Of a stretch of DNA of 64,000 nt, positions 23,984 through 53,610 are shown one piece after another; the stretch's first letter is position 1; each line of letters begins with the position of its first letter. The stretch comes from Porphyra umbilicalis (lineage: Eukaryota > Rhodophyta > Bangiophyceae > Bangiales > Bangiaceae). The notes under the pieces were generated by a model. The model searched no databases and was not told the origin of the DNA. It worked only from the letters and a program-made list of their open reading frames with translations. The DNA lies in the NCBI GenBank assembly GCA_002049455.2, contig KV918909.1, forward strand, positions 115,542-179,541, written 5' to 3'. The position numbers were made by a program, and so were the translations under genes.

Positions 23984-24008
23984 TTCAGAGCAAAGCCAGC
24001 AATGTCGG
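23984..24008 (+). repeat. Left TIR of composite element
   Basis: A 25-base sequence identical to the reverse complement of 50,467-50,491. It contains CAATGTCGG, shared with the termini of the Harbinger elements in this window. Confidence 0.85.
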
Positions 24009-24359
24009 GACTTTGTTGTTAAATTCTTAATTGCGCATGCGACGTGGTGCCCTCCCGGCGGTCTCGAGGCCTGAAATGGACGATATACTCAATAGACTTA
24101 CTCATGAGTAGGCTACTGTCTCGCCGATAGTCATGTTTATCGGTGGGTCGTTTGTGGTCTATTCCAATGGACTGAATCTTAGTGGGATCAGAGAGGCGCC
24201 AGCAAGGCGAGATCCTGATGATCCGTCCGAGATTCCTTTGCTCCCGCTCGTAAATGGTGGCGATCGTCTGCCACGACGCAGACACGAAGCACATACACGA
24301 CGCGAGTGGCCGATCGTGCTGATGTACGACAATCATCTGACACATGGCAGCACCCCAGG

Positions 24360-24430
24360 GAACGTCGGTATTCGCAGCCTTGACGGGATGCAAGGAACTC
24401 GTCAAGGCTGCGTCAAGGCGTCAAGGCAGG
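24360..24430 (+). repeat. Left subterminal inverted repeat (TTGACG motif)
   Basis: TTGACGGGATGCAAGGAACT, then CGTCAAGGCTGCGTCAAGGC. The complement of 49,980-50,045 reads TTGACGAGATGCAAGGATCT, then CGTCAAGGCTTCGTCAAGGC. A weaker match extends outward (GAACGTCGGTATTCG against GAACCTTGGTAATCG). The CGTCAAGG motif recurs several times on each side and may be a transposase-binding array. Confidence 0.8.
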
Positions 24431-24730
24431 GGGGGGGGGGGGTGTGGAGATTGAGAATCTTTGGCGGGGGGGGGCGGGATCTCGGTCGCCGGGGGGGGCA
24501 CTGGCGGGTTTTTGCTCCCCCGGGCGCGGCTGCTCCTATGCTTTAGGACAGGCACCTGCCTCTCATCACGCCGAGCACAGGCAGCCAGATCCAAACCGCC
24601 ACGCGCGCGCCCATGCGCGTCCAAGTCCGCGCGCTCGTGGCCCCGCCGTGCTGGTTCTCCCCCCCCCCGTCCCCCTCTGCCTTGACTCGCAGCCACCTTT
24701 TTGCTTGCAGCAGCGGCTTTGGACTTTGTC

Positions 24731-26838
24731 ATGCTGCCGCTGGAGGACTTGGGCTCGGTCGCCCACGCGTCGTCGGCCATGAGCTACGGCCGAGACACAG
24801 CCGCATTCTGTGCAGCGAAGATGGCGGTGCACGCTTGCGAGAGGGTGTTACAGTCGACACGTGGGGCGCTTGTTTTGTTTCTTATGGCGGCCCCCGCTGA
24901 CGGACAGAGCGCTGTGGTGCTGTACGGCGGACAGGACGCCCAAAACTGCTCGAACTCGGAGCAGAACAACATCGCTACGGGGATGCGCCGTATCATGGGG
25001 AGCCTACGCGCGACAGGGACGGCTCCTGTTTTGGACGCGACAACCCCACCTGGGACCCCCACAAACCCCCTTTCTGCGACGCCACGCCCGCCTACTCCTG
25101 CTCATCGCGACTCGTCGGACACCAGCAGGCGGTCCACTCCATCAAGATCTTCTGACGACCTACAGCGACTGCACCGCGCGGGTGGTTTGCCTCGTTCAGG
25201 GGCTTCGACGGCGCGCCGTCCAGTGTCTCACGGCTCCCTTCCTCGCCGACTTTCGCCAACCCCCCGTACGACCAGGCCAATCGCGTCTTTTCCCGGCCTG
25301 CTCTCTTTTGCGCCTATGTTGGGCCCAGGCTTTATCGACAAAAGCGACGAGCTCGTGGTCACCAGGAGCAACACCGTCACCGTGTCGGCCCAGCTGAGCC
25401 TCTCCTTGTTGGAGCGGCTACGCGAGCTGTTTCCCAATCACCGAGGGCTCTGCAAGCTCTTCCTCCAGCTCATTCGTGTGGCCGTGAACGACTTCTTGAC
25501 GCAGCTGCCGCTTCGCAGCAGCACCTCGACGCAGGCGACCAAGTACCTGCCGAAACTCCCATGGAGGTGACTCACGTCTTCATCAAGTACACCGACGTGG
25601 ATGACATACAAACGGTCATCGCCCCGGTTTTAACAAACACAAGGGACGATGATCCGGTCAAGTTTCTCAGCCGTATTTGCTACATGGTGCACATCAAAGA
25701 CGCCGCGTATACGTGGCTGGTGGAGGAGACTTGTAGCGGCGCCCAGCTGCCTCCGACGGGCATCAGTAAGTCGACAACTGCAGCTGCCGCTGCAAGGCGG
25801 TCCCCAGATACCGGTGGCGGGGCGGCGGGTGCCGGCAATGGGGGCAGCGCCGCGGGGGCGGCCGCTAACAACGCGGCGGCCAGTGCGGCTGGGACGGGCG
25901 GCAACACCCCGGCGGCTGGCGCGTCGGGGACGGGCGACATCACCCCAGCATCGGCCGCGGCGGGGACGGGCGACAACACGCCAGCGGCCGGCGCGGCCGG
26001 GACGGGCGGCAACACCCCGGCGAGCAGCGCGGTGGAGACAAGTGGCCGCCCGCCAGCGGCCGGCATGAAGGGGACGGGTGGCAACACCCTGGCGAGCTGC
26101 GCGGCGTGGACGGGCCGCAGCAAACCAGCGGCCGGCGCTACGGGGACGGGCGGCAACATTCCGACCGGCGGCGTGCCGGGCACGGTCGGCAACACTCCGG
26201 CGAGCGGCGTGGTGGGGACGGGCGGCAACACCCCGGCGGGCGGCGTGCCGGGCACGGTCGGCAACACTCCGACGAGCGGCGCGGCGGGGACGGGCGACAA
26301 CACGCCAGCGGCCGGCGCGACGGGGACAAGCGGCAACACCCCGGCAAGCAGCTCGGCAAGGGCGAGTGGCAACACACCGACGAGCGGCGCGTCGAGGACA
26401 AGCGACAACACGCCAGCGTCGGGAGCGGCGGGAACGGGCGACAACACGTCAGCGGAAGACGCGGCGGGGACGAGTGACAACACGCCCGTGGCCGGCGTGG
26501 AAAGGACGGGCGGCAACAGCCTGACGGCCGTCGCGGGGGGGGTGGGCGGCAACACCCTAATGTCCGCTGTTGGCGCTGCTGGAACGCCGAGTGGCGGCGC
26601 GTCGATCGCGCTCGCTGTTGATGCGACGCAGCTCGTGGGTCAGACGGGTCAGCGGCAGGGGGACCTAATGCCGTCGCGTTCACCGCACCCCCAGCGGACG
26701 TCTCTTTTTTGTCGACAGTGTGCTAGTGGGCTCGGGTGTCCTGCTGCCCGTGCGCTCGTACTGCGGGCGAGATCCTGTGGAACGCCATCTCGTCGTCATT
26801 TGCCAAGTGACAGTGCTCGAAAACCACATGGGCGATGA
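24731..26838 (+). pseudogene. Hypothetical gene with 12-residue repeats, frameshifted
   Basis: Family not recognised. The first part (from ATG 24,731, after an acceptor-like TTTTTGCTTGCAG ending at 24,710) runs to TGA at 25,570 and ends with a convincing helical stretch (LSLSLLERLRELFPNHRG, then VNDFLTQLPL). The second frame takes over around 25,500-25,561 (MEVTHVFIKYTDVDDIQTVI) with no splice signals, so I infer a 1-bp frameshift or sequence error. It continues through an A/G-rich linker into eighteen 12-aa repeats (25,891-26,538) and ends at 26,838; an acceptor near 26,718 suggests the real end is spliced elsewhere. It is the first gene inside the left end of the composite element. No catalytic motif is seen. 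Confidence 0.45.
25891..26538 (+). repeat. 36-bp coding minisatellite, 18 copies (12-aa repeat)
   Basis: Consensus G-T-G-G/D-N-T-P-A-A/S-G-A-A, in frame throughout (648 bp), with substitutions such as GTVGNTPASGVV and RTSDNTPASGAA. It is T/N/G-rich with no cysteine, likely a flexible stalk or linker. The 36-bp period keeps the frame, unlike the non-coding minisatellites in this window. Confidence 0.9.
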
Positions 26839-26943
26839 GAATGGGTTCGTGGTTGCTCCCGGGCACGGGACGGCGACGGTGCCTCTGACATTCGGTACTG
26901 CTGCCCAGAGTGGCAGAGAGCTTGTTTGCAATCGTCATGTATC
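26719..26943 (+). CDS. Probable exon of the upstream repeat gene
   Basis: An acceptor (CTCTTTTTTGTCGACAG) ends at about 26,718 and a donor (GGTAAAT) lies at about 26,944. Between them one plus frame reads VLVGSGVLLPVRSY, then HLVVICQVTVLEN, a balanced and protein-like sequence of about 74 residues. I could not fix the matching upstream donor in phase, so the exon assignment is tentative. Further protein-like sequence follows at 27,173-27,445 (HAAKLQHEVPVVEVVAVCVE) but the join is unclear. Confidence 0.35.
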
Positions 26944-27497
26944 GGGTAAATGGGTGCATCAACTGGCAGGTGTGCGGAGTATACTGTTTTGTGTGCTGTG
27001 CGAGCAGTGCATGATTTTACTGACCTCGCCACTCCGTGCGTCTATTTCTCTCTGTTCTGTGGCTCATGTGCGCCGCAGTCCGCGTTTGAAATTGTGGGAC
27101 AGGCCGACGGACAGCTTCCAGAAAGGCCGCCTACTGGGAACTGCCGTCATCTGACGGTGGGCCATATCCGACGTGCTCATGGAGCATGCTGCTAAATTGC
27201 AGCACGAGGTACCTGTGGTCGAGGTAGTGGCCGTCTGCGTTGAAGACGGGTGTGGAAGGGAGAGGTACACTTTCTCGGCACTGCTCTATCAGTCGATGAT
27301 GTATGAGCGATACAAGGCCGCGCATTTTGGTACTCGGCCAGCTCCAACACATATGGATGGGATGGGGGGTGAGAGGGGCGATGGGAGTGACGGGGCCGTG
27401 ACGCTTAAAGTGGTGCTGTGGGACTATCGATATCTCTCCGAGTAGGCTCTTTGGGTCTTTTTCTATTCTCCACGATTGTCGACGCCTGTACGGAAAT

Positions 27498-29208
27498 CTA
27501 TCCCGCACGGAAAACCCGCTTAGCGCGGACCCGCTCGTACCAAGCCAGTGCATTGGCGCTCGTCTTGACGTGCTCCTTGGTAATCCCACGCACGCGCAGG
27601 GAGGCAAGCGAAATGGCCCTCGACAAAGCCGCGTAGACCAACCCATCCAAAGTCCACTGCGTGCAGGAAAAATCAACAGCCACCTTGAGAATCGTCAGCC
27701 CCTGCGCGCGGGACACCGTCACCGCCCACGACAGCAAAATGGGAACTTGCCATCGACACGCCAGCTCCCTCTACTCCGCGTCCATCACAGAAAACTTCAC
27801 CAACGGCATGCAAAGCGGCTCTTACGCACCCTCAAATTTGCAGCAAACAGACACCCCCGACACAAACGAGGTTAAAATCCCGTGCGCTCCAGTCTTCACC
27901 CCACCGAATGACATCGTGCACACCACCCGAGCACCGACCTTGACACTCACCGTGTCCGCCGCCACCTGGCTTAGTTCCTGCGAGTTCCCTTCGCGGCGCG
28001 ACTCCTTCGCGCCGGTCAACGTGTCCAAGCGCAGCGCCTCCCCCTCGCGGCTTTGCCCCGCCTCAGACTGCATCACCTCGTCACGACAGGTGAACGTGCC
28101 CCTCGCGCTTACCAGCTCCGCGAGCTGCTTGTTGTTGTACGCTTGAGCGTCGCAGCTTTTCGCGCGTAGGTGCTGGAAGCCTCGCCACTCGTCTGCCTCG
28201 TCCACCCACATCGAGATTAGCTGGGTCAGATCCTCTTCCTGGCATTCGCCGACTTGCAGGCGGGAAAGAATGGAGAGTAAGGGTTTCCCCCACGCCTGGC
28301 GGTGCTGTCCGACGAGCTCTACCACATCCCCGTACGTGAAGAAGAAGCTGTAGTCCCATGCCCGCTCCGAGTACGCCCCCTTCTGTGCCGACGTGTCGGT
28401 CATCTTGAAGGCGGGCAGTTGCAGAGGAGCACCCGCAGCCGCCAGAATAAAAGGACCAAACAAAAAGTAAAGAGAAACGTATGGTTAGTCCACAGGCTGA
28501 CATCCATCGTCAACAAAGACGATACCATTTGCATGCAAACAGAATCGCGTCGTCAGCTTGGGATAAGAACAGCAAGAAGCACGTACTAAAATCGGTGCGA
28601 CCGCCGAAAGGTCGGCATTGCATGGTAGGAAGAGCCGTGCGTCTAAACACGTACTCGAGGCCGTCAAACCACCGCCCAGGGATGGTGGGGGCCTCGTCGA
28701 TGACGACGAGTCGGGCGGCTGTAATGGTCTTCTTCGCCTCGGGGTTGGCAAGGATACGCAAAAGTATGCGCTCCTTGCACACATCTCCATATCTCCGACC
28801 AACACGCGCAAATGGGACGACACGGTTTGGCCACCAACGAGCTGGGCGGCCGAGCCCGCCCAAGCAAGAACCACAACAGCACTATACCCCAGCTTCTGGC
28901 GCGCCACGCTCACGATGAGTGACAGTAGAGTGCTCTTTTCGCATCAAGCAGCCCCCACCGCAGCGACATTGCGGCCCTCGAGCACGTATCTAGCTCCTTG
29001 CAGCTGCAACTCATCCAAACTGGGCGCGGAGCTCATCGTTGCGTGTCAGCGACGGGGGGGTGAATGCCTCGATGATCGCTTGGACCGTTTGTCCCCAACC
29101 AAAACGAACCGGCCCAGCGTCGATACTGGAACGGCACTTCGTAGGCGGAACGGAGACAAGAAGGCGGTCGCAACTCGCGTTCCCCTCGAGAAACGTAGGC
29201 GCTCGCAA
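27498..29208 (-). pseudogene. PIF1-like DNA helicase remnant
   Basis: Read on the minus strand, the pieces follow PIF1/RecD-type order. Around 28,960-28,930 is the P-loop G-A-A-stop-C-E-K-S-T; the second Gly codon is TGA (28,946-28,944) and the third is Glu. Next come GGQTVSSHLRVLVGD, the Walker B-like LVVIDEAPTIPGRWFDGLEY, a PLQLPAF motif, VVELVGQHRQ, VGARVVCTMSFGGVKTG, and finally LLSWAVTVSRAQGLTI with YAALSRA. Lesions include a frameshift near 29,022, the TGA in the P-loop, a frameshift near 28,790, an unclear join at 28,450-28,587, TAA at 27,824-27,822 and TAG at 27,773-27,771. The loss of the P-loop rules out activity. Helicases of this family occur as transposon cargo; no Helitron Rep domain was seen. 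Confidence 0.85.
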
Positions 29209-29734
29209 CGCTCACGGTTTGAGTTTCTGAGATGGCTAAGTACGGCCGTTTTTTGACACTCTGGCCACCCCCCCCGTCCACACGGGTGGATCACGCGGTC
29301 GCTGCTTTCGATGCCCAGGGGGTCATCAGGGAACCCTTTCGGGGGCATCCACGAGGCGTCTCTCCGTGCTCTGTGCGTCTGCTCTCGTTTGCTGAGTCCA
29401 CCCTCATCCCCCGCTGCCCCCAAGCCTCAATGAAAGGCACCTTGTGTCGTCCACTTCAACTACCTTCAACGGCCGTACCAAGTATACGTGCCCTACGACA
29501 GTTCGCGTGCTCGGTGTAGATTTAACTGATGTGTGCTACCCGCCCTGCCCCTTCTCACATAGGGTGATTCCACCAATCGACCTCCCTGCGACGCCACCGC
29601 TGCCCCCCCGCGGCCCCCCCGGGATGTCGGGCTTCTGAGATTTCAGCGGCGACTTCAATAGATGCCACAAGTGCGAAATGCCTGCTGCCCCGCGCTTATA
29701 CGAGGGCGGTGAAGGGGGGGACGGCTTGGCATCG

Positions 29735-30870
29735 GAAGCGGCTGTCATGGCCACGCTGGTAGCCGTGGACAACTGGTGGTGGTGGCGGGGGACGGCAAAA
29801 GTGGCGTAAGGGGGGGCGGTCGTGGCGCCGCTGGTGGGCGTGGACCACTGGTGAAAGAGGGGCACGCCGGCGACAGGGGGGAGGCGGGGACAGTTGCGGC
29901 CATGTTGGTGGCCGTGGACCACTCGTGGTTGTGAGGGCCGACGTTGAATATGGCATAGTGTGGGGCGGTCGTGGCAACGATGGTGGGCGTGGACAACTGG
30001 TGGAGGTGGCGGGGGACGGCGACAGTGGCGTAGGGGCGGGCGGTCGTGGCCACGTTGGTGTGCGTGGACCACTGGTGGTAGAGGGGCACGACAGGGACAG
30101 AGGGGAGGCGGGGGCGGTTGTGGCCATGTTAGTGGGCGTGGACCACTCGTGGTGGTGAGGGCCGACGTTGAATATGGCATAGGGCGGGGCGGTCGTGGCA
30201 ACGATGGGTGGCGTGCACAACTGGTAAAAGAGGGGCACGACCGGGACAGAGGGGAGGCGGGGGCGGGTGTGGCCATGATAGTGGGCGTGGGCCACTCGTG
30301 GTGGTGGGGGCCGACGGCGACAGTGGCGTAGGGGGGGGCGGTCGTGGCCACGCAGGTGCGCGTGGACCACTGGTGAAAGAGGGGCACGACAGGGACAGAG
30401 GGGAGGCGGGGGCGGTTGTGGCCATGTTAGTGGGCGTGCACCACTCGTGGTGGTGGGGGACGACGGCGACAGTGGCGTAGGGGGGGGCGGTCGTGGCCAC
30501 GCAGGTGTGCGTGGACCACTGGTGCTAGAGGGGCACGACTTCGACAGGTTGCGTCGGAGGAGGCGGTCGTGGCCACGCTGGTGTGCGTGGACCACTGGTG
30601 CTAGAGGGGCACGACAGCGACAGAGGGGAGGCGGGGGCTGTTGTGGCCATGTTGGTGGGCGTGGACCACTCGTGGTGGTGGGGGCCGACGGCGATTATGG
30701 CGTAGGGTGGGGCGGTCGTGGCCACGCTGGTGGGCGTGGACAACTAGTGGTGGTGGCGGGGGACCGCAGCAGTGGCGTAAGGGGGGGCGGTCGTTGCCAC
30801 GCTGGTGTGCGTGGACCACTGATGGTTGTTGCGGGGGATGGCGACAGTAGCGTTGGAGGGGCGGTTGGTG
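29735..30870. repeat. G-rich minisatellite, ~75-bp unit, about 15 copies
   Basis: GCGGTCGTGGCCACG-type landmarks recur every 73-77 bp from about 29,817 to 30,786. Two unit types alternate loosely: one with GTGGACCACTSGTGGTGGTG and a GACGGCGACAGTGGCGTAGG tail, and one with GAGGGGCACGACAGGGACAG and GGAGGCGGGGGCG. Minus-strand frames of about 280-300 codons are open and rich in P, H, T and R. Because unit length varies by non-multiples of three, I do not call a protein. Confidence 0.85.
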
Positions 30871-31124
30871 CCACATTTGTGGGTGTGGACCAATGGCGAT
30901 GGTGTGGGGTGACAGCCACAGTTAGGTGTATGTGCGAGTAGTAGTGGCGTAGGTCGGCGCTCGCTGCCGCGCTGATTTGCATGGAAAACGAGCGGTTGTC
31001 GGAAGTGACAGCCACGACTGAGTGTTTGTGCAAGCGGGGGTGGTGTCGGTTGTGGAGGCGTGGGAGTTGAAGGCGTTCCTGTGGCTTCCGCAGTGGTCCT
31101 TTCCACTCCCGCAGAAAACCGTTT

Positions 31125-31514
31125 TCAATGCTTTATGGGCAGCTTAAGTGAGGTGTAGAATAAGGTGGAGGGATCCCACAGACCCCGCCATCTGGCTACT
31201 GACGCGAATTCCGGTGGGTTGGTCTTCAGGAGTTGTGTTCTGCTGCGGCCGTTCCCTTGCCCTCCGGATGGCACCAGGCACGTCACGACCACTTCGGATT
31301 CACGGGCAGCTCGCCCCCCGGCCTTCCAACGCGATTTTGCGTAGACAAGCAGCGCCGCCATCTCTTCCATAAAGGAGCGCGTCCCCCCCCCTGGCCAGCC
31401 AGCACTGCCAGCACCACCGCAGACGGTCCCATCACAAAAAAACGGGGTATCAAGCACCACTAGAGCGTCCCCCGCTCGCGCCACGTACGTGTCGCTGAGT
31501 GACAGAGCGCACAC
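31125..31514 (-). CDS. Unassigned ORF fragment
   Basis: A protein-like frame of about 130 codons without an ATG near its 5' end (LSLSDTYVARAGDALVVLDT, later SEVVVTCLVPSGG). It lies between the KDZ-like remnant and the minisatellite on the same strand, so it may be another exon or fragment of the KDZ-like gene or of a gene between it and the helicase. No motif recognised. Confidence 0.3.
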   Translation of the reverse strand: MCALSLSDTYVARAGDALVVLDTPFFCDGTVCGGAGSAGWPGGGTRSFMEEMAALLVYAKSRWKAGGRAARESEVVVTCLVPSGGQGNGRSRTQLLKTNPPEFASVARWRGLWDPSTLFYTSLKLPIKH

Positions 31515-33052
31515 GAGTACGGCGGTCGTGCCGCCAAGGTACGGATGTCACAGGCGGCACCTGAGTCTATGGAGAATCATCTTTGTGGAGCACGTTCTTC
31601 TTCTCGCGTGTCAAGAGAAGTATGACCGTTGGTTGACTCTGCATCGCCCTCCCCTTGGCCACAACCACACGCACATGAAACTCTGAAAAAACGAAAGGTG
31701 GAGAAGTCAAACGCCTCCGGGAGAGCTACGGTGATCGCATCCCGTGCGGCTGCCCGGATGTTGTGCACCAACATTTGGTAGGTGAGAATGCTCGTGTACT
31801 CCACCTGGCCGCTCGCCGCCAGCACACGCTTCAACACCTTGATTGCCCGATTGCGCTGCTCGTAAGGAGCAGTGTTGATGTGCTTGAGCACGAAAGACGA
31901 CGCGGGAGCGAAGAACTTGCTGCACACGTGGTTGATGATGTGTAATGCATCGCTCACCACCGTCGACCTCGCGGGCAGCCACGGCAGCTTTCCCAGCGCC
32001 GACCGTACCGCCCAACACCCGTAGTCGTACACGATGAACCGCGTCAGCTTTGCAAAGCGCGTGATGACGGCGTCAAGCAACGCCGGGGGACGCTCGCGCT
32101 TGTCCAGTACGACAAAGCCAAGCACCTTCGAATAGCTGCACGCGCAGCAGATGATGAAGGCGCCCGGCGAGTGCGGCTTGCGCGCATCTCGATAATTCTT
32201 GGAGCACACTCCCAGCTCGGCCTTTTCCGTCCGCTCGAAGGCCGACGCGCGACACTACGGCCGCCCGCGGAACCACATCCCCGTCAGGAGGGGTAATCGC
32301 TCGCGTCGGGAAAGGCAGACAAACCTGTGCCCGCAACCCCTCCCTTTTCGCCCCCGCAGGGCACCACCGCGACCGAAAAACCGCCGCCGAATCGGGCGCG
32401 AGAGGACACTCTGCGTGATAGAAGATCAAGAAATCGACCATCTTGTCCACGCATGCGGCTGTGGAAGCCGCAAAAGTGGCCCGAAGGTTTTCCATTCTCC
32501 TCAGCGACGTGAGGAAGGCGACACCCATTCGCAGCATTCTCAGCAGCTGCAACAACTCTGTAGACAGGTGCTCGAGGAACAAGTCGCTGATCGGTCCGAC
32601 CTTGACGGCTTCCATCAGCACGACGGGAAAGTCAGCCTCCATGGTCGCGGAGCGGAGAAGGTCCGCCAGCCCGCGGAGCCCCGCCACGTGGTCTAGATTT
32701 AACGCGAACACGACTGGGTCGGTCGCTACTGCGATGCAAAACGAGACAACATCGTGCGCGGCAGTCCTTCCCAACGCCCGGAAGCCCGGCACAAGCACGT
32801 CAAAGGCAGAAATGGGTGCTGGGCGGCGCCCACCCACAGCAGCTGCTGCAGCAGCCGCCGCCGCCACTGGGTTGGGCGCAGGCTCCCCACCAATCTCTGC
32901 AGCGACGCCGTTTATAGCTACGACCGCAGTACCAGCAGCCGCAACCACAGCAGCTGCCTCCGCCGCGGCCGCGACGGCGCCTGCCGCTGCAGCACCTGCC
33001 GCTTCTGCGGCCACCGCAGCTACAAGCTGACCCCCCGCCGCCGCTGGCCTCA

Positions 33053-34360
33053 GAGCATTCCCACCAATGTCGGGCCAACGGTCTGAAACGGTGAAATGAA
33101 ACCGCTACGTGTGGCCCTGCGAGTGGTCAGTTGCCAACGGGCCAACGCGTTGCCAACGGGCAACGTAATGGGTGAAACAGAGTGGGCTACCTTTCGAAGA
33201 TCTGAGCGCCGTTGGCCTCGACGTTGTTGGCCGCACTTCGTGGTTGCTAACGGAGGACACGTATCAGCGTCGTCGCCAGTATCGAAATGAAGAGGCGTCC
33301 GTCGAATACGTGCCGAACATGTCACGGAAAGCGTGTGAACGGAGCCCAAACCGCCCAAATCAAGGCAATTTAGCGAGACACGTGGAGGCCTTTCGGTACC
33401 AATCTGGATCGAATCCGCTCGAGTGCGTGACGTGTGTTGCGGTCGCACCGCCCCAGGCTGTGGAAGGTGTTGGAGCCTGCATCATGGCGGTCGAACCGTC
33501 GCCAGCGGCCACAGTGGCCTGACAAACCGCGCAAACGGGTGGCTCGAGAGCCATGCGCGTGGCACAAGGGCTGCGCCCCTGTGCACCTCTGCTGCGTGCC
33601 TGCCCCCATCTGCTGAGTCAGACGGATTGCACCGCGCAGTCACTCCTCCTGTGACGCCTTGGGTGCCTCCAGAGGGCCGAGGACGGGCCAGAATTGAGAA
33701 ATGGATCGCGCTGGCGGTCTCATTGGCACTCGTGTGTGTCCACCCGAGCGTCCGTGGTGTGTCCCCCGGGACGTGGGGACAAGCGCCAGGGCTTTCGGGG
33801 CGGTGTCCTTGACAGCCTCGTGAACAATATCTCAGTGCGACCGTCCACTCACTCGCGAGTGCGTGATGGCTGACGGCGGGCCCCCAGGTGTCCGGCGCCG
33901 AAATCGAGAGGTACGGTGCACGCCTGTCGAGGAAACCGACCGTCAGCCTCCCTCTGGGTCACGGGTCTCGTGAGGCATCGGGCCTGTCAACGGACGGCTC
34001 GTGTGAGCCTCTCGGGACATCCGATCAGGCAGTCCACGAACGCCGTTTGTGGGGTCCGGCACACTTTTGTGGCCCGGTCGCACCGTTCTGAGTGCGCCTG
34101 GGAGGGCCATTGGGGGCGGTGCCGCAGTCGTCGTTGGCAGGTAGCATGGGGGCAACCAACAATGTCAGTCGACTTAGGTCCTGTGCTTTCGGCTGTTTGC
34201 TTGCGGGGACCGCACGGGTGAAGGTGTACGTTGAACGTGAACGTGCCCGCTCTCTGCGGCCCGTTCCGCAACGGCGGTGCATCCGCCTTTTTTTGCCGTC
34301 GACGGACGGTGTGTCCACTGCTGTCGCTGTGCCGTACGTCTCGCGACACAGCAAGCCGCC
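33053..34360. other. Left subterminal region of the nested Harbinger, no gene
   Basis: TIR, then repeated GTTGCCAACGGGC and CCAACGCGTTGCC motifs, then about 1 kb of DNA without a protein-like frame. It probably includes the promoter of the partner gene. Confidence 0.6.
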
Positions 34361-39215: not shown

Positions 39216-39429
39216 TGTCTGCATCAACAGAGAAATCAGGATTGCAGGGGAACGCACCGACCAACAATGCCACAGGAGGCACAGAATCGCGGTGACACGG
39301 CACTTCATGTCAGATACTGCATCCCACGTCGAAACCACACTCGCTGGCGTGCTCCCCCGCACAACACCCGGTACACCGCACACACAAGTGCAACGCATTG
39401 TCGAAAACGATTGAATGGGAAACGCACAA

Positions 39430-42010
39430 GTCGGTTAGCAACGATGTGAACCGGGCCCCTGTCCTTGACGACGCTTCTGGTCAGTGGGAGCGGGACCAAG
39501 CACGGCGGGCGGCGCCGCCGCCGGCAGGGATGCGGGCGTTTGTCGGCGGCGGAGCCGGCGGGCGATGCGGCCTTGGTCGGCGGCAGCGCCGACTTGCACG
39601 GCAGCTCTGCTTGGCGGCGGCGGTTGTCTTGGTTGGCGGCGGCGGCAGGGATGGGGGCGTCGGTCGGCAGCGGCGGCGGCGGAGAGAGCCGACGGCTTCC
39701 CCGGCGTCAGCAGCGAGGGCACCGGGTGGGGGGGCGGGGACGGCGTTGGCGGTGTCGGCAGCGGTAACGGTCGGTGCTGGCAGCGGTCGGCGGGGGCGGG
39801 GCCGCGCGTCGGGACGTTGGCGGGGGCGACCGACGTCGTTGGCGGTTGTCGGCGGAGCCGGGGACGGCGTTGGCGGTGTTGCACGGGGCGAAAAAGGTGT
39901 TGGCGGTGTTGACGGGGGTGACGGTCGACGTTGGCGGTGGTCAGCGGGGGCGGTGACGAGGATGGGGGCACAGATGGCCGGTAGCGACCGGCGTCGTCGC
40001 GGGCCACACGGCGATGGCGGGGACGGGGGTCGGTGACGCGACGGCGGGCGGCGAGGGCCGCCGTCGGCCGCGTAGACGGTGGTTCCGGAGGGCGGTGGCG
40101 GCTGCGGCGGTCGGTGGCGCCGGGGAGGTGCACGGCGACGACGGGGACGGAGACGCAGGTGGCAACGGTTGGCGAGAACAGCGGCGATGGGCGGGCGCGG
40201 GGGGGCGAGCGGCAACGACGGACGGTGGTGGCGGCGCGGGTGGCGGCCACGGTCGGCTTGGGCAGCGGCAATCGGCGGGGGCGGGAGAGGCGAGCCGCGA
40301 CGACGGTCGGTGGTGGCGGCGCGGGCGGCGCCAACGGTCAACGGGGGCGGCGGCGATGGGCGGGGGCGGGGGGGGCGAGCCGCGACGACGATCGGCGGTG
40401 GCCGCGCGGGCGGCGGCAACTGTTGGCGGGGGCGGCGGCGATGGGCGGGGGCGGGGGGGGCGAGTGGCGAAGATGGTCGGTGGTGGCCGTGCGGGCGGCG
40501 GCAACGGTTGGCGGGGGCGGCGGCGATGGGCGGGGGCGGGGGGGGCGAGCGGCGACGACGGTCGGTTGTGGCCGTGCGGGCGGCGGCAACGGTTGGTGGG
40601 GGCGGCGGCGATTGGCGGGGGTGGGGGGGGCGAGCGGTGACGACGGTCGGGTTTGGCGGTGCGGGCGACGGCAACTGTTGGCGGGGGCGGCGGCGATGGG
40701 CGGGGGCGGGGAAGGTGAGCCGCGACGACGGTCGGTGGTGGCCGTGCGGGCGGCGGCAACGGTTGGCGGGGGCGGCGGCGATAGGCGGGGGCGGGGGGGG
40801 CGAGCTGTGACGACGGTCGGTGGTGGCGGTGCTGGTGGTGGCAACGGTTGGCGGGGGCGGCGGCGATGTGCGGGGGCGGGGAAGGCGAGTGGCGACGACG
40901 GTCGGTGGTGGCCGTCCGGGCGGCGGCAACGGTTGGCGGAGGCGGCGGCGATAGGCGGGGGCGGGGCGCGCGAGCGGTGACGACGGTCGGTGGTGGCGGC
41001 GCTGGTGGCGGCAACGGTTGGCGGGGGCGGCGGCGATGGGCGGGGGCGGGGGGGGCGAGCCGCGACGACGATCGGCGGTGGCCGCGCGGGCGGCGGTAAC
41101 GGTTGGCGGGGGCGGCGGCGATGGGCAGGGGCGAAGAATTCGAGCCGCGACGATGGTCCGTGGTGGCCGCGCGGGCGGCGCCAACGGTCGGCGGGGGTGA
41201 CGGCGATGGGCGGGGGCGTGGGGGGCGAGCGGCGACAACGATCGGCGGTGGCCGCGCGGGCGGCGGCAACTGTTGGCGGGGGCGGCGGCGATGGGCGGGG
41301 GCGGGGAAGGCGAGCCGCGACGACGATCGGTCGTGGCCGCACGGGCGGCGGCAACGGTTGGCGGGGGGTGGCGGCGATGGGCGGGGGCGGGGGGGGCGAG
41401 CGGTGACGACGATTGGCGGTGGCGGCGCTGGTGGCGGCAACGGTTGGCGGGGGCGGCGGCGATGGGCGGGGGCGGGGGGGGCGAGTGGCGACGCCGGTCG
41501 GTGGTGGCCGTGCGGGCGGCGGCAACGGTTGGCGGGGGCGGCGGCGATGGGCGGGGGCGGGGAAGGCGAGACGCGACGACGGTCGGTGGTGGCCGCGCGG
41601 GCGGCGGCAACGGTTGGCGGTGGGTGGCGGCGATGGGCGGGGGCGGGGGGGGCGAGCGGTGACGACGATTGGCGGTGGCCGCGCGGGCGGCGGCAACTGT
41701 TGGCGGGGGCGACGGCGATGGGCGGGGGCGGGGGGGGCGAGCGGCGGTCGTGGTCGGTGGCGTGGGCGCGGGTGGCGGCAACGGTCGGCGGGGGCGGCGT
41801 CGAAAGCGGCCGGTGCGGGGGGCGGCGGCGATCGGCGGGGGCGGGGGGGCGGACGGCGACGACGGGGACGGTAGCGCGGGTGGCTGCGGCGGTCGGTGGC
41901 GGCGGCGTGGGTGGCGGCAATGGTCGGCGGGGGCGGCGGCGACGTGGGGGCGGCGGCGGGGGTGCCGGTGTGCGCGGGTGGCGTGGTGGGGGGGCAGTAC
42001 GCACGCGCGC
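39430..42010. repeat. 85-bp GC-rich minisatellite, about 19 core copies
   Basis: Landmark GGCGGCGATGGGCGGGGGCG recurs at 40,355, 40,440, 40,525, 40,610, 40,695 and so on, exactly 85 bp apart, up to about 41,800; diverged copies extend to both sides. Units contain CGACGACGGTCGGTGGTGGC, GGGCGGCGGCAACGGTTGGC and a G-run of 7-9. As 85 is not a multiple of three, each frame cycles through all three phases; stops are so rare that minus-strand frames of 452, 687 and 883 codons and plus-strand frames of over 300 exist. The array lies inside the Harbinger, between the transposase 5' end and the right TIR. Confidence 0.9.
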
Positions 42011-42781
42011 GGGACGCGGTGGTGGGTGGTGAAGAGGGCGGTATTTCTGGCCGCCAAGGCGTCTGTGTTGTGTGGGCTGTGGGTTGCTGTGGGGGTCTGG
42101 CGGTTGTCAGGGGTGCCCTGGGGTGCTGTCAAGGGTGGAGGGTTCTGCTCAGTTCACTGCGTGGCCGCAGGTGCGGCCATTTGGCGACCGGGCGCGGGAC
42201 TGTGGCCTGGCCCCGCCTCGTGTGCCCGCACGAGCGCTCCGATCCAGTTGTTTTACCAGTGTCGGTGCGATCGCGCCGCGTGTCCGACAGGCCCGCAAGC
42301 GCGTTCGGCCACACGCCACCGCACGAGAGATACGTGACACACTTCAACGATCCGGGCTCTGGGGTCGAGATGGCATGCGGCCGTCCAGTTCCGAGAGGTA
42401 CAATATTCCATCCGTGGGTGGCTGTCGAAACAAAAATATGATAAATTGGGCAATCTGAGGACAATATGAACTGCCACTTGTCACTCATTTAACCCCGTGA
42501 AACCGCGATGGACCAATCAGAGCACAGAACCCGTTGGCCCCACGGCCAACGAGTTGCCAACGGAGGCTCCGTTGGCAACTCGTTGGCCCTGGGTCCAACG
42601 GCTCCGACCCCGAATCGGGCGCAAGTACATTCGCGTTTTAACTCGCTTGACCTCCGTTGGCAACGCCGCGTGCACGTTCGACATTGTTACCCGCCCCGAG
42701 AACTGGCCAACGGCGAATTTGAGACACGTTTCTGCAACGTGTGCCCAATATGGCGTTGGCCCGACATTGTTGGGAATGCTC
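42011..42781. other. Right subterminal region of the nested Harbinger
   Basis: No gene. From 42,520 it holds several GTTGGCCAACG/GTTGCCAACGG motifs, including CCAACGAGTTGCCAACGGAG with a near-complement GTTGGCAACTCGTTGG directly after, then the right TIR. The motifs match those near the left end and are candidate binding sites for the Myb-like partner. Confidence 0.65.
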
Positions 42782-45110
42782 TTACATGGGCCGGCCGCGC
42801 GGCCAGCCACGCGGACAAAGACGTGACCACTTTCCTCTCCACGGCGTTGTTGGGCTGTGCGCGGTTGTTCGCGTGTGAGGCGGCAATGATCTTGTTCATG
42901 GCTCCAACAATGGCCTTGACGAGCTGCGTGCGCGCCGCTTCCAGCTCCCAGACAACAGAGAGAAGCTAGCGAAGGGCGACAGCGCCCGCTCGTTTTTCCG
43001 ACGGGACCGCGTTCATGTACGATTGCGGTAGGGCCCCCGGCAGGAGCGCAGCTAACGCGAGCACAGCCGCATTTCGCTGCTCCACAGTGACTGCAATGGT
43101 GGCGCCCGGCTCTGTCAGGACGAGCCGCAGGTACCGCTGTACCCACTCGCTGCCGATAATTCTTGACGACGTGAGCAGGCAGGCTTCGGGGTTGCACTTC
43201 TCTGAGTAAGTGATAAAGTGGGTGGCGAGCATCCGATGTAGGTAGCCCAACCAGATCTCATCAGCAGTTATCACGTCAATGTTGTCTCCATCACAGCAAA
43301 AGCCACAAAAACAGAGCCATTCGGGTAATTATATCCCCATCAGACGCAAACCGGCCGAGAGCAGGCGAGCCACCCTGCGGCGACCGATAGCGGAGGAGTT
43401 TGACGACCACACGCTCGCGCGCCGCCGCTGCTGCGCCGCAATCCACCACGTGCGAAATATTTGGGCAAAAGGGTTGCCCTCCACAGCGACTTGCGACGCA
43501 AAGTGTCGCACCAGCATGACAGATGCCGCCGTGCCGGGTGACAGGATCACGAGCCCCTCATTGCGCCCCTCAGCGCACACCCACATGCCGCAGTCCTTGT
43601 TGCTGCAGTTTGAGGCGTCGATCTCCATCTGCCCGATGCACACCGCTGACAGTACGTTGACTTTGGACGGGCCGGGCGGGGTCTCTCCGCGCGACGTGCC
43701 GCCCTTGGGGCACTTGGCGGGTGCGGGCACCACAAAAACCTCGCCATTGCGCGCGGCGTCCATGAGGGCCGTGTCCACGTGCACGCTCTAATTGCAATTG
43801 AAGGTGGACAGCCTGAAGCGGGAGATTTACTTGGTGATCGGCGGTATGGCGGCACCAACTGCGAAAGTGGCGACCATGGCCTCGATCTCGAGCAGGTGGC
43901 GTGTGTGCAAGACGTGCACACAGCTCTTCTTGAGGCTCGTTGCGCAGTAACAGCACGATGTCGTCTTCCGAGCGCACTTGACCGGCGCCGGCACCCAACG
44001 ACGCTTCTCGCCCGCCACGACCACAGCGACAGGAAACCCGCCGGTGGTAAGCACCTCCACTTGCGCTTCCTCCACGTCGCCTGCAGTCTTGCTGACCGCG
44101 GTGCCGTTGATCAACCGAGTCGACGCCCGCCCACGCCGACCACGCCGCGCTGCCGACCCGGCATTGTGACTGCCCGTGCTCGCTGTCATGCCCTCTGCAC
44201 GTTCTGTTCTGGCAAATGGCGAGACAATGCCGTCCGATCCACCCATTCGCGCCACAAACCACCTCGTTATGACACCGCCGCTATCACCAAGCAACGCACC
44301 GACGATGGCAAGAGCATCCGAGAAGAGTCTAGCGTGGTAGCAGTCGTGGTCGAGCGCCGTATCCGACGATACGTCGATGATGGCCTCAATAACGGTGCTG
44401 CCCGTGCACGTGCACTGCACGTCTCCTCGCGGTGCGTTCCAGCACGTCATCAGCTCCTCCTCTTTAAATTCGAGATGATCTGCGTAGGAGATCCCCGCGA
44501 CTGCGCCAAACACCATCTCAAGTGGCCAAACCTGGCCACGGTAGTGTGTTGCGAGGGACGTGTCAATGAAGGAACGCACCGCCGCCCCGCAGCCGTGGTC
44601 CTCGTCCGCGACACCAAACTCCTCTAGCCACTTCCTGACGCCTATCTTGGTGATTGCCATGGCGAACGCCAGGAGGTACCCCTGTAGCAGGTTGGCGCGT
44701 GTGTTGCGTCCAGTGCCCACCGTCCTGCCGCCGAGGGTGTGCCGGGTACCCGGCCGCGACTGGCTGAGGTTCGGGAAGCGGTTCTCGCTCACGCCGGCGT
44801 CGCCGTCCATCGCCGTCTCCTCCATGTCGTTGCCCTCCCCCATCTCCATGACCTTGCGGGTGGCATCCGCGCGCACCTCATGCCCCGCCACGCTCGTGAG
44901 GGACAGAACCGGGTGGTGAAATACAGGGGTAGACGCGGTTGCTACAAAGCAACGAATGTCCTCCCATGTCGGCTGCATACGCGCGAGGCTTCTCAGAGCC
45001 CCACGATCCGAGCGGTGCATGGACGGGCACAGGACCGGGGTGGTTGTCGAGGCGCGCTCCTCGGTGCCGCACACGTACATCTGATGTTGGTCCCGAATCA
45101 GTGGCAGCAA

Positions 45111-46824
45111 TGCGGCATCGACGCGTTGGGGGCTTGCGGCCAGAAGACGAGGTCAACAACGACGACAGACAGGGCTAAGAGACGGTAGCGCCCTTCCATG
45201 CTGCTTGGGGTCTTGACGAGTGATCGCCGTCGCGGGAGGTCGGCGCTTGTGCGTCAGGAAGGCGAAGCCGCCTCGCACGGCGCCGCACAGCTCTTGAAGT
45301 ACCAACACCATGGCGCCGACGAGTTGCTTCGTAAATCAAAAAAAACAAAGGGGGAAAAAGCAGATGCCGGGACGCAGGCCGTGGCGGGGCGGAGACGGGT
45401 GGGGGGGGGGCCTGACCGGTGCATGCAATGCAGATAATGAAAGCAGAGTACGACGGCAAGAAGAATCAGAAAAGTGTGGATGTCGGCACGCGGGTCGGGG
45501 CGGGAGAAGGGGGGGTAGCGACCGAGGGATGCATGATGCAGAACAGGCGGGCGAAACTAAGCCACTTACAACGGCGGGGCAGAGCAGCCGGCGCCGCGTG
45601 CGACGAAGAACGCGGCGTGCGGGGTACGGGTGGAGGCAATTATAACAGTCATCAGTGCGCTGCGGCTGTGCAGGAATGCAGGAAGCTGCTGTTAGACGTG
45701 ATTACGTGATGCACCACTATGCAGTGGAGACCAGAGCAGCACGAGTGACGACGGGCTGCGCGCGGACGGTACAAAGTACGATGCGACAGAAGAGATAACA
45801 GAAATTTGAGAACGTACGGGCTGGGCAGCGGGGTGGTAGACAGTCGCAGGCACCCCGCCTTGGCACGCCAGCGGCGCTCAGCGGCGGGCGCGAGGTGGTG
45901 CGCCACGTGGGTAAAATCCCCGTGGCGGCAGAGAAGCAGCTTCCAATGGCCGGGGGAGCCCCGCGGCAGGCGGGGAGAGCCTCGCGGCAGGCGGAAAGCC
46001 AACCTTAACGGCGGCGGGAACCCGTTCCGTGCGGTGGAAACCCCGCGGCAGACGGGGTGAGGCGCCCGACGGCCGGGGGAGCCCCGCTACAGGCGGGGAG
46101 AGCCCCGTGAAGAGCAGAAAGCCAACCTCAACGGCACCGGGAACCCGTGGCGTGCAGGAGGAGCCCCGCGGCAGACAAGGTGAGGCGCCCGACGGCCGGG
46201 GGAGCCCCGTGACAGGCGGGGAGAACCTCGTGGCTCGTGGGGAGCGGCGACCGACAGCGTGAAATGCCCCACGGCGGGAAGCGGCGCCCCGCGGCGGTAC
46301 ACCGATGGCCCCTAGCAGGTGTGGAGCGTTGTCCAAGCGTCTGATGGCTCGGTGGTGGCGGGCTCAGGCACGATGAATGGGGCAGTGGGGGCAGGCACAA
46401 AGCGGCCGCAGCGCACACAGACCGTCGTGGCGTGCAGCCGCACGTGACCGGCACCGTGCACGACAGCGGCCGCACGCGCCCAGGCGGCACCGATGCAGGG
46501 GTCGGCGACGCCGCCGTCGGGGTTAATCGGGCACTGTCGACCGCGGCTGTGGCGACTTTTTGATGGCGAAGTTATAGGATAGGGGCACCGAGATGAAGCT
46601 CTCCTGTCGGCATCGTTGGGATTCCAACCGGGTCAAGGGGGTCTGAGGAAGAGTTCCTCTCAGAGAGGCTAGCATGTACGCAGATTGATCGAGCATCACC
46701 CAATCATATAGATCTATCCAGGCAGCCTTGACGGCGACAATGCTGCGATTACCCGTCTTGCTGGCGGCTCGCGGGGCATCGCTGCCGCTCGTGCAGCTAC
46801 CACTCATGGGGGCCGCCGTCCAGC
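45111..46824. other. No convincing gene; imperfect repeats
   Basis: Contains an imperfect ~115-bp duplication at about 45,340-45,540 (GGGACGCAGGCCGTGGCGGGG against GGCACGCGGGTCGGGGCGGG, both ending GATGCA-rich), and the ~121-bp minisatellite listed separately. Open frames are short or compositionally biased. Confidence 0.45.
45940..46245 (+). repeat. ~121-bp tandem repeat, about 2.5 copies
   Basis: GGCCGGGGGAGCCCCG recurs at about 45,947, 46,070 and 46,191. Each unit contains AAAGCCAACCTYAACGGC, GGGAACCCGT and GACGGGGTGAGGCGCCCGAC. Shorter GAGCCCCGCGGCAGGCGGGG sub-repeats lie inside. Confidence 0.85.
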
Positions 46825-48534
46825 TCACGCTGCCGCCCTCTCCCTCTGGGTGGCTGCTACCACCCCCCTCTCTGACCGTCTGCCGCCCTTGGCGGCGCGC
46901 CCGTTGCGGCGGCCTGCCCCCCCTATCGCTTCGCGTGCCGCCCCCCGCGGGTTACCGCTGCATGTCGCGCGACCTACCGCTCGCCGCCCGCCCAGCGCGC
47001 CGCCACCGTCGCCGACGCCCGCGCGGTCAGCCAGGTTGCGGGGCGACTCCCCCACTCGCATGGTCGCCGGCGTGTGCCCGGCATGCATGGTGGCAGGCAC
47101 GCCACGGCCGTGGCCGATCGCCGACGTAACATTGCCGCGACACATCGGCGTGCCGCCGCCGAGGGGGGGGGCTCTGGCGCGCGCCGGCGCTACAGCACCA
47201 ACTGCAGCGGCTGCAACGGCAGCGGCGCCGGCGCGGCCGCGCACAGCGCTTTCGCCGCGCGCCCGCCCAAGGCGTGGGACCACAGCGCGCAGCGGCGCGA
47301 CGCCGACACTACGGCGACGCCGCGACGACCGCACCTGCTCACCCACCGTTGCGGCACTGTGGGGCGCTACCGACGGCCGCCTTGTCCGCCGCCGCCGCCA
47401 CACCCGCCACAGCCACCTGGTGCACCGCTGACGTGTGCTGCTGTCGAACGTCGCCGGCGGCGGCGCCACCGTCTCCATCACAACCGCAGACGCCCACCGC
47501 GGGCGGGCGCGACGGCTCGTGGCAGGCGCACCCCCCGCCGCCCCCGCCGCCGGCCGCGGCGGTGCGGCACCGCCCGGCACGGCGGCCGGCCGGTCGCACC
47601 CGACACGCTGGGACAGCCGCCGCCCGACCGCTCGTCGCCAGTTCCATATTTTTCCGTGCCCCGCGCTGCTGCCGCCGCTCTGTGAAGTCGCCGGCGGCCG
47701 CCGCAATGGCGGTGACGGCGGCGGCGACGGCGGCGGCACCGCCACCGTTGCAGCGCCACTCGCGGTGCGGGGGGGGCGAGGGTGTCCGAGGGGCGGATGG
47801 GTATAGGGTGCGGATGGAACCGCCGCCACAGACGGCGACGCGGCGCCCGAGGGCGAGCGGTCGTCGCGCGCGGCTCCACCAGGCGAAGCGCACGGCGCCA
47901 CTGCCGCGCACGTTGCTGCAGGTGCGGTGCGCATTTTCTACGACGCTCCCTCCCGTGGCGCGGCCGTCGCCGCCGAGCTACACACGATGGGGACACGCTG
48001 CTCTGTAGCGTCGGCGGTGGCGTTGGCGGCGGCACCCCCCGCCGTGCCGTCGCCGGCCAGTGGGGAGAGTGGCTGCGGAGGGGGGGGGGCACCGCACGTC
48101 GTGCGGGGCGCGATGGCCACGAAAACACTGGCTGCCATCCCAACATCCGCCTCGCCGCCATCGCGACGGCCGAAGCGGTCGCGGCGCGCGCCGCCGACCG
48201 CCGGCCGTCGGAAGTTTACGGCGGCCGCAGCGCACAATTGGTCGCCCGTCACCCCGTCACAGTGGTGCCACCCTCCCCACCGCTGTCACGGAGGCTGTCA
48301 CGGCGGCGGCGGTGGCAGGTCGCACATGCGTTCGCGCCACCACAGGCCAGCCGGCGGCGTCAGGCGCGTCGGCGCTGTTCTCCCGCGCACCCGCCCCCCC
48401 CGCCCCATCAGCGTGACGCCGTTCACCATGAGGGCCCCCAGGGGCGCAGCGCCCCCCCTCCCGCCCTTCCAGACCTCGGCCGCGACCAGCACCTGCGGGA
48501 AGTGGCCCGCCAAGACGCTCTCTCGCCCGACCAC
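46825..48534 (-). pseudogene. Possible decayed coding region, family unknown
   Basis: One minus frame is open from 48,534 to 46,825 except for two TGA codons at about 48,274-48,300 and a TAG at 47,940-47,938. The upstream part is protein-like (GRESVLAGHFPQVLVAAEVW, ALMVNGVTLMGRGG, WWRERMCDLP, VTGDQLCAAAAVNF); the downstream part is A/P/R/G-rich and may be non-coding. Plus-strand frames here are also open because stops are rare. No family recognised. It is inside the composite element near its right end. Confidence 0.3.
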
Positions 48535-49979
48535 CGTTGGGCACCCCGCCCAGCGCCCCCCTCTTCTCTACGCGGTGCGTGCCGACCGCCGTCCAGAGGG
48601 CGCCGCGCGCCTGCGCATGTGGGGCGGGGGCAGCCGCCGCGGGCACGGCCGACGCGACGGTTACTAGCGGGGGGGGAGGGTTGCGTGCCGCCGCCTTTTC
48701 CGCCGCCTTCGCCCTGCCCGCCTACGTGCCACAGCGGTGGGTGCGGGCGCCGCTCCTCCGCCGACGCCTTGCGCCACCGTCCGCTCATCCCGGCTTCGCA
48801 CACGTTCCAAACTACACTTTGGTTTTGGCCATCTTGCATAGATAGACACTAGTACTTTTGAGTGCCTCCGCCGGACAGAGCTAATTTTACAGGGCGATCA
48901 TGTGTTCAGTAGAAGTGTCCTTCGCGCCCCCCGCAAGAAGCGTATCCTGGGGCCCGTGGAAGAGTACGCCGGAATCGACTGATGCGCGCAAAAAATGACA
49001 GCGCCCGTGTTACATGAGTACAGTGCCCTTGCCTCAGAGCAACCCGGACCTTTTGAGTATGCTGAGAACGATTGTGCTACGGGCAGAGCTCGCACATATT
49101 TTCTTCCTGTTGCTTCCTTCACGATGAAAGATATCGTATCGAAAGTCACACAATGCACAATCGTTGTCGTGACGATGCGCCCGGCGAGGATAGTCCTCAG
49201 CTAGGCGGCTGACTCAAAATAGTTGTCGATCGCAGACGCACGCGCGAGCGAGTGCCCTCCGGTGCGTGCCCAATACCGGCGCCAACCCCACGCGCATCCC
49301 TCTCGCGGACCTCGCCCCGCCCCAAGCCATGGCATGTCAGCCGTGTTGTTGACACTGTGGCATGGCGGAGCGCTGGTAGTGCCGAGTAGCTCTTCATGCC
49401 AAACACCGTGAGCGAGCCGTACACGGCGCGGGTTGCCCCGCCCCGAACTGTCAATCATCCTTCGGCCTTCTGGGCGGTCTGGCTCCACCGGGACCCAAAG
49501 GCACACATACAAAGGTCTCACCATCTCACCACCACAGCAGCACCACTAATACCTGAAGCGTCCGGACACACGCGGCACCAGCTTCCGAGCCTCGTGCACA
49601 ACTTTGCCGCGACCCCTGCCAAAGAGCTGAGTGACAATTGGACGCAGGCAGCGACAGGGGCTGCCGTTCTCGGTAGCATACAAGCAAGCGGTGGAAGCCG
49701 TGCAGCGGCTGCGACCAGCTGGCGTCGGCGGAAAGACAGCGGTACTTAACTGAGGGGGCGGAGACCATGTCAGCGGGGCAGAGGTACGGGCGCGGGCAGT
49801 GACAGCAACGAGGAGGGTACAACAGGTGCCGAGATCACTCCTGCGGCCGAGATGGATGTCTTAACATATACGAATCACTCCTTCAAGGGGAGCACATTCC
49901 CCGTGCCCCCCCAGACCGTGTGAGCCCGCCCACCCACCCCCCTCCAGATTCCGAATCTCCCCTGCCCCAAACCAACATT
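48535..49979. other. No gene seen
   Basis: GC falls after about 48,850. No protein-like frame longer than about 100 codons and no recognised repeat before the right subterminal inverted repeat. Confidence 0.45.
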
Positions 49980-50045
49980 GACGCAGCCTTGACGAAGCCT
50001 TGACGAGATCCTTGCATCTCGTCAACCCGACGATTACCAAGGTTC
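49980..50045 (-). repeat. Right subterminal inverted repeat (TTGACG motif)
   Basis: Reverse-complement partner of 24,360-24,430, with three TTGACG/CGTCAA steps and GATCCTTGCATCTCGTCAA. Inside it both sides have a GATTCNGAATC-like block (24,450 and 49,947). Confidence 0.8.
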
Positions 50046-50466
50046 ATACGTCACGGCGTCTCACGTCGATTGTGTCTGCGTCCGTCGAGGCAGGAAGTGT
50101 CAATTCTTGGGTCACCTGTCGGTCCCAACCTTTGCGTTGAGCAGCGATCGTTTCGCGGTCGTCGTTTGGCGTGGTCGTTTGTCAACAGACACGTTTCTTG
50201 TTGCAACGATTGGGTGTTCAGCCCAATGAGAGGGCCTGTAGCATAGTCCAACGGTCCCGAATAGGGAGCCCGTGCCGCATTTTGGCTTCGAATAGGACAT
50301 GCGCGTTCTTTGTGACACTCGGACTATCGAACCGAGTTGGAATTATCTGATTTCGAGGAGGTGGTTCGACGTTCAATAGAGCACGTTCACATTGACACAC
50401 AGCCGTCTGCGGCCTATTAAGCGATTCAGACACGCTTCACCAATGATATAGACACGTTGTGATAGA

Positions 50467-50491
50467 CCGACATTGCTGGCTTTGCTCTGAA
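50467..50491 (-). repeat. Right TIR of composite element
   Basis: Exact reverse complement of 23,984-24,008. Just outside it, TGTACAGTACTGTACTG forms a small palindrome of its own. Confidence 0.85.
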
Positions 50492-53279: not shown

Positions 53280-53610
53280 GCTGTGTAGGGGCTGCCAGCC
53301 GCCCCACGGCTGCCCGCCGCCCCACAGATGCCCGCCGCCCCAGGCTGGGTTGTGGGGCAGCGGAAAGAGACTAGGCGGCCAGCCGATGCGAGGTGGCGGG
53401 CAGCCGCGGCGCGGCAGCCAGCGGCGGGGCGGCCGGCCGGGGCAGCCGCGGGCCGGCAGGCAGCGGCGGGGGGGCGAGCAGCGGCGGGAGAGCGGGGGGC
53501 GGCGCCGCGGCTAGCAGCCTCGGGGCGGGGGGCAGCCATCGGACGGCGGACAGTGGTGGGGCAGCGGACAGGCTGTCCGCCACCCCGCGACTGCCGGCGG
53601 GCGGCTACCC
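53280..53610. repeat. GCGGCGGGC/CAGCCG low-complexity tract
   Basis: Short CAGCCGCC, GCCCGCCGCCCCA and GGCAGCCGCGG units over about 330 bp, open in several frames on both strands. An island of simple sequence in otherwise lower-GC DNA. Confidence 0.75.

Follow-up and report, generated by a model that had tools for sequence, protein, structure and literature searches.

The systems closest to the locus analyzed here are the giant KDZ elements and the PIF/Harbinger transposons. KDZ elements described in Ectocarpus are generally longer than 10 kb and reach 30.3 kb; they contain nested unrelated transposable elements and extra genes, and their transposases are often decayed (PMC12477816). An active KDZ element of 31.7 kb in Chlamydomonas is also cited there. 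Within the KDZ group, Zisupton and Dileera are described with 8-bp target duplications and an accessory gene, and terminal inverted repeats are stated for Zisupton (PMC12730594). PIF/Harbinger elements are characterized by 3-bp TNA target duplications and short terminal repeats (PMC12477816). Here, we analyze a 26.5-kb stretch (positions 23,984 to 50,491) of a 64,000-nucleotide window (~64% GC) of the Porphyra umbilicalis genome. An initial annotation had read this stretch as a single giant element with decayed genes, a composite transposon carrying a KDZ-like transposase, a PIF1-like helicase, and a nested Harbinger. Comparing it with related copies elsewhere in this genome (83.8 Mb in 665 contigs, labeled C2, C6, and so on), we find that it is very probably a nest of four transposable elements, with a later deletion at the left terminus of the KDZ element. 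The layers that these copies appear to tell apart are an outer Harbinger-type element, a KDZ-type element, a 3.3-kb terminal-repeat family, and a nested Harbinger. For annotation this is of consequence, since what had been claimed as a new giant element is better read as an ordinary nest. Nested insertions and giant KDZ elements both have precedents, and the notable part of the locus is the pairing of KDZ with PIF1.

The stretch is bounded by an exact inverted pair of 25 nucleotides (23,984-24,008 and 50,467-50,491), recovered as first annotated. Inside it lies a second inverted pair (24,360-24,419 and 49,986-50,045; 60 nucleotides, 83% identity), which is also real, although its right arm had been placed a few bases off, at 49,980. 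A third pair (33,052-33,080 and 42,754-42,782; 29 nucleotides, 97%) bounds the nested Harbinger. Ten first-order Markov versions of the region contained no exact inverted pair of 20 nucleotides or more spaced over 5 kb apart, compared with six 20-mers and one 25-mer among the inverted exact repeats of the real region. Thus, the exact outer pair is not expected by chance, in agreement with what had been argued from the sequence. The outer 25-mer occurs three times in the genome, twice within the window. The search for other copies with this repeat, which the initial annotation had proposed, thus finds one occurrence beyond the window. Relatives of the outer ends mostly delimit elements of ~1 kb.

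The outer ends are those of a Harbinger-type family with a usual size of 1,030 bp. We queried the genome with 517 bp from the left edge of the region and 592 bp from its right edge, scoring 40 candidates for each query, so that the resulting counts are lower bounds. Besides the window itself, there are at least 41 matches to the left end (73-89% identity) and at least 40 to the right end (identity up to 91-92%). The ends often pair as elements of ~1 kb, and others lie 12-14 kb apart. Judged against these copies, the terminal repeat begins with GAGC at 23,988 and finishes with GCTC at 50,487. The 25-mers are exact as reported, but the outermost four bases of each are flank, which includes the remnants of target duplications, TCA on the left (23,985-23,987) and TGA on the right (50,488-50,490). 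The left end of the element thus occupies 23,988-24,359 and the right end 50,046-50,487, both on the plus strand.

Eighteen loci of this family were tested for both ends; in three (L064, L019, and L020) only one end could be located, and these were set aside. Among the remaining 15 copies, 13 measure 1,029-1,035 bp and the other two 957 and 2,143 bp. Equal 3-bp TNA duplications flank 11 of the 15, as described for PIF/Harbinger elements (PMC12477816); L068, L072, L075, and L079 do not have them. The last two are each back to back with another copy: at L075 (C190:33,305-34,730) and L079 (C650:4,621-6,046), left ends of the 1,030-bp family stand head to head, 8 bp apart, and the two loci are perhaps one duplicated region. 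A copy of 1,030 bp could not hold a transposase frame as long as that of the nested Harbinger (659 amino acids between stops). In 8 of the 29 loci searched, a homologue of that nested transposase (59-69% identity) lies inside a related right end, at a distance of ~1 kb except in L080, where it is 2.8 kb. Short repeats elsewhere in the window (53,194-53,286 and 62,259-62,378) are ~96% identical to sequence near the outer-family copies L073, L072, and L082.

Homology to the outer family stops at sharp edges. In a comparison of 20 loci, left-end homology is present in 18 and ends at 24,359 in 17 of them (at 24,323 in L064), and right-end homology resumes at 50,043 in 15 of 17 (at 50,046 in L064 and 50,133 in L080); L081 had no match to the window ends. 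These edges coincide with the inner inverted pair, which first hinted that this pair comes from another element. Among ten copies of 1,030 bp, pairwise identity is 96.5-99.1%, against only 88.6-90.2% to the window ends, and their alignment shows 206 bp of the outer family that have no counterpart in the window.

Transposons of the KDZ type are presumed to move by cut and paste, using a DDE-type transposase. In the window, the KDZ-type layer runs from 24,360 to 46,759 on the minus strand and is interrupted by the nested Harbinger; it measures 22,400 bp, or 12,668 bp without the insertion. Its left end is a GAAC-type terminal repeat (24,360-24,419, plus strand), which is the left arm of the second inverted pair, and its right terminal repeat (46,700-46,759, plus strand) ends in ...ATTACCCGTCTT. 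The terminal inverted repeats are imperfect (GAACGTCGGTATTCGCAGC.. and ..GCTGCGATTACCCGTCTT). From 24,360 onward, the left end is matched at three other places (C2:80,126, C291:52,710, and C6:596,261), each with a relative of the window's transposase-like frame (31,577-32,254) ~6-7 kb inside. The collinear order of the body is common to C2, C6, C291, and C9. The right end at 46,759 is matched over at least 144 bp in each of three places (C2:91,906-92,049, C149:114,166-114,335, and C82:124,253-124,408) and at five places over 60 bp.

The best-delimited sister copy, and the only one with both flanks read, is the 11,924-bp element in C2, which has the 8-bp target duplication GTTGGTTT on both sides. 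When its flanks are joined with one 8-bp copy kept, the resulting sequence aligns gap-free over the junction with the terminal part of a 3.3-kb element. Thus, the C2 copy lies inside a 3.3-kb element. The 8-bp duplication and terminal inverted repeats are shared with Zisupton, whereas Kyakuja, the third KDZ group, is described with 7-bp duplications and no terminal repeats (PMC12730594). In its size class, nested insertions, extra genes, and decay, the KDZ layer resembles the giant KDZ elements of Ectocarpus (PMC12477816). A second KDZ right-end fragment (C149:112,546-114,344; 86% over 170 bp) lies ~1.2 kb before the start of the window, ~26 kb from the KDZ layer.

To the right of the KDZ terminus, the minus-strand segment 46,760-50,045 belongs to a separate family of 3.3-kb elements, of which it holds the body and the GAAC end. 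Most of it (46,760-49,850) is matched over long stretches in C443, C227, C481, C181, C150, C2, and others. The right end of this family, which forms the right arm of the second inverted pair, is present in 12 of 17 other matches (85-93%), and the other end, CAAGACGGGTAATCG..., is seen in C443, C227, and C150. In the window, 205-225 bp at this CAAGAC end are missing, and the right end of the KDZ element stands there instead. A six-frame scan of 46,760-50,045 found no Pfam domain above chance. The ends of the 3.3-kb element resemble KDZ ends, which suggests that it was probably mobilized by a KDZ transposase.

The innermost layer is the 9.7-kb nested Harbinger (33,053-42,781), whose annotation stands: it has 29-nucleotide terminal repeats at 97% and encodes a Harbinger transposase (37,455-39,434, minus strand; Plant_tran, E = 6.3e-59; DDE_Tnp_4, E = 1.2e-11). 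This transposase was the sole match above the cut-off in a Pfam search of 20 of the 46 open frames of at least 200 amino acids in the region, and a Plant_tran/DDE_Tnp_4 transposase is in keeping with a Harbinger element. The nested element was also considered as the owner of the outer ends and rejected: both are Harbinger-type, but their end sequences differ. We searched for its family with the left 648 bp, scoring 40 of 143 candidates. Among the matches listed, 39 of 42 others cover at least 500 bp of the query at 88-99%, and because its relatives match so closely, the nested Harbinger is probably the youngest layer. It is absent from the KDZ copies in C2, C6, C291, and C9, which run through the site, and in C2 the empty site aligns without gaps to the joined flanks of the nested Harbinger. 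These comparisons show that the families are separate and that the Harbinger lies inside the KDZ element. The element also contains an open frame on the plus strand (34,241-35,689) that has no Pfam match and in which one stretch looks Myb/SANT-like by eye. An 85-bp tandem array of 19.6 copies lies at 40,161-41,827, where the surrounding 2-kb bin reaches 81% GC.

The KDZ-like transposase is present as a 225-amino acid core remnant (31,577-32,254, minus strand), linked to KDZ by way of its relatives; related open frames span 1,575 amino acids in C2 and 1,365 in C6. The Pfam KDZ model (PF18758) matches 34 places in the genome, 19 of them over the curated cut-off, and none of the closest relatives of the window frame (in C2, C6, C291, and C9) falls within these places. 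Genome-wide, 182 candidate relatives of the window frame were obtained, of which 150 rows were listed, reaching down to E = 5e-4. These wider relatives overlap 24 of the 34 PF18758 places and 15 of the 19 above the cut-off, as tested with the 37 of 150 rows on the contigs concerned; 29 rows gave the same result. The first assignment of the frame also leaned on motifs presumed to be those of KDZ.

Together, these layers suggest a probable history for the locus. A Harbinger-type element, either of the usual 1,030-bp size or closely related to such copies, would have inserted first, and a 3.3-kb terminal-repeat element would have inserted into it. A KDZ transposon with its transposase and a co-oriented PIF1 gene would then have entered the 3.3-kb element close to its CAAGAC end, and last the 9.7-kb Harbinger would have inserted into the KDZ element. 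A later deletion, perhaps from an aborted transposition and with one edge exactly at the KDZ left terminus, would have taken the end of the 3.3-kb element together with ~206 bp of the Harbinger host. Since the outer host lacks ~206 bp and the 3.3-kb element some 205-225 bp, the junctions must have been rearranged.

Several observations count against the nest as reconstructed here. The window's outer copy is flanked by unequal TNA trinucleotides, TCA and TGA, and the nested Harbinger by TCA (33,050-33,052) and TTA (42,782-42,784), which differ by one base. The window's KDZ copy has no target duplication (ACCCCAGG on the left and GCTGGCGG on the right), one flank apparently having been deleted. 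Both the deletion and the arrival of the 3.3-kb element before the KDZ element are deduced from what is missing, and an assembly join may lie at the deletion edge. In addition, the Pfam KDZ model did not match the window's transposase frame with the threshold relaxed to E = 10 (the frame gave DUF3700 at E = 0.084). Its KDZ membership is supported but indirect, with a link that runs through relatives.

We also considered other arrangements of the same ends. An improbable one is that 24,360 and 50,045 bound a single 25.7-kb unit, a macro-transposon with a KDZ left end and a 3.3-kb end that jumped into the Harbinger host. These ends are indeed inverted repeats at 83%, and both stand at edges of Harbinger homology. 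However, there is no 8-bp duplication around the pair (ACCCCAGG on the left and ATACGTCA on the right), 206 bp of host are gone, and at 46,759 the KDZ element ends in a right terminus of its own, as it does in C2. A reading of 24,360-50,045 as one KDZ element was likewise rejected, the last 3.3 kb being an independent family.

The initially annotated composite, 26.5 kb moved by the outer Harbinger ends with the KDZ gene, PIF1, and the nested Harbinger as cargo, is very unlikely. Its outer terminal repeats are perfect, and short copies with the same ends bear target duplications, so these ends were mobile. Nevertheless, the flanking TNA remnants are unequal, outer-family homology halts at the inner termini, and, among the matches listed, the KDZ copies in C2, C6, C291, and C9 do not lie between outer ends. 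Relatives of the outer ends are mostly ~1 kb, and related copies do not share both the ends and the cargo; we therefore rejected 23,984-50,491 as one composite transposon. The findings that the initial annotation had named as refuting a single element are thus at hand, since related copies have other end points and the ends come from different elements: the outer ends belong to the 1,030-bp family, the inner left end to KDZ, and the inner right end to the independent 3.3-kb family. That the arrangement is partly an assembly chimera is likewise very unlikely: the repeats are high-copy and duplications are missing or unequal at the junctions, but the joins coincide with element termini, and comparable nesting occurs independently at C2 with a perfect 8-bp duplication.

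The PIF1 helicase family is better known from Helitrons. Within the KDZ layer of the nest, a decayed PIF1-type helicase occupies 27,597-28,764 on the minus strand, in two segments that lie in different frames. Six-frame Pfam scans of 24,360-33,050, 42,783-46,759, and 46,760-50,045 returned two helicase matches below the cut-off, a chance-level TAL_effector repeat (E = 0.52), and nothing else. The helicase matches are a Herpes_Helicase match below the curated cut-off at 27,597-27,734 (E = 1.8e-4) and, in the other frame of the same strand, a weak PIF1 match at 28,594-28,764 (E = 0.067). We take the former to be the C-terminal motif segment and the latter to be the DEA (Walker B) segment. The weak matches are credible because their counterparts in C2, C291, C6, and C9 exceed the PIF1 cut-off (52.9, 51.1, 48.8, and 41.7 bits, respectively). 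The two recognizable genes of the KDZ element are both on the minus strand, as remnants of the transposase and helicase first annotated there. With its PIF1 split over two frames and its transposase frame shortened, the window copy looks dead, in line with the decay that the initial annotation had described.

We find that a PIF1 helicase is a repeated companion of KDZ in this genome, in a minority of KDZ-like regions as counted. For this count, 150 KDZ rows were merged to 146 regions and 130 PIF1 rows to 126. The nearest PIF1 match within 10 kb lay downstream on the same strand in 34 of the 146 regions, upstream in none, and on the other strand in 8. Around the 34 Pfam-KDZ places, PIF1 was downstream of 21, upstream of 1, on the opposite strand at 2, and absent at 10. 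As a control, none of 77 Harbinger ends had a listed PIF1 match within 10 kb, the decayed PIF1 of the window not being on that list. These were 77 of the 85 Harbinger-end rows from the outer left-end and nested left-end searches; the window's own outer end, four partial or back-to-back outer rows, and three short nested rows were left out. Under even placement, ~1.1 downstream same-strand neighbors would be expected rather than 34, but this figure presumes an even spread of PIF1, which transposon clustering could break. The pairing is further weakened by the 104 of 146 regions that have no PIF1 match within 10 kb, so that it is not universal, and by 2 of the 34 PIF1 neighbors (C28 and C99:96,023) that fall below the Pfam cut-off.

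A literature search that covered few subscription papers found no description of KDZ (or Zisupton) elements paired with PIF1 or a helicase, and such a description may be in print. By term search, the pairing is also not described in PMC6431247, PMC11258239, PMC12411881, and PMC7473861, and papers on red-algal genomes, judged by title and opening of the abstract, offered nothing relevant. One gene-family table lists both KDZ and PIF1, with PIF1 entered as 'Helicase-possibly TE' (PMC6396904). In the paper on the giant Ectocarpus elements, PIF1 is absent from the main text and 'helicase' occurs in the references only (PMC12477816), whereas PIF1 stands repeatedly beside KDZ here. The accessory gene described for Zisupton and Dileera is a TET/JBP dioxygenase (PMC12730594); the repeated companion of KDZ here is PIF1 instead. 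We tentatively suggest that the genome might harbor an expanded two-gene KDZ lineage, a KDZ-PIF1 class in which the helicase would belong to the machinery of transposition and not be carried along by chance. A linked PIF1 would help to move or repair so long an element. If this were general, very large DNA transposons would use a helicase of their own for movement or repair.

The KDZ layer also contains tandem arrays. The 12-amino acid-repeat protein of the initial annotation is present as a frame at 25,156-26,838, in which the repeat is encoded by an array of 36-bp units (25,847-26,557, plus strand; 19.8 copies, 70% matches). Most of this array has no DNA match in C2, C6, and C291, falling in a gap in the matches to them, and it lies ahead of the match to C9. 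Between the PIF1 and KDZ remnants, a 75-bp tandem array of 15.8 copies (29,740-30,922) is open in several frames.

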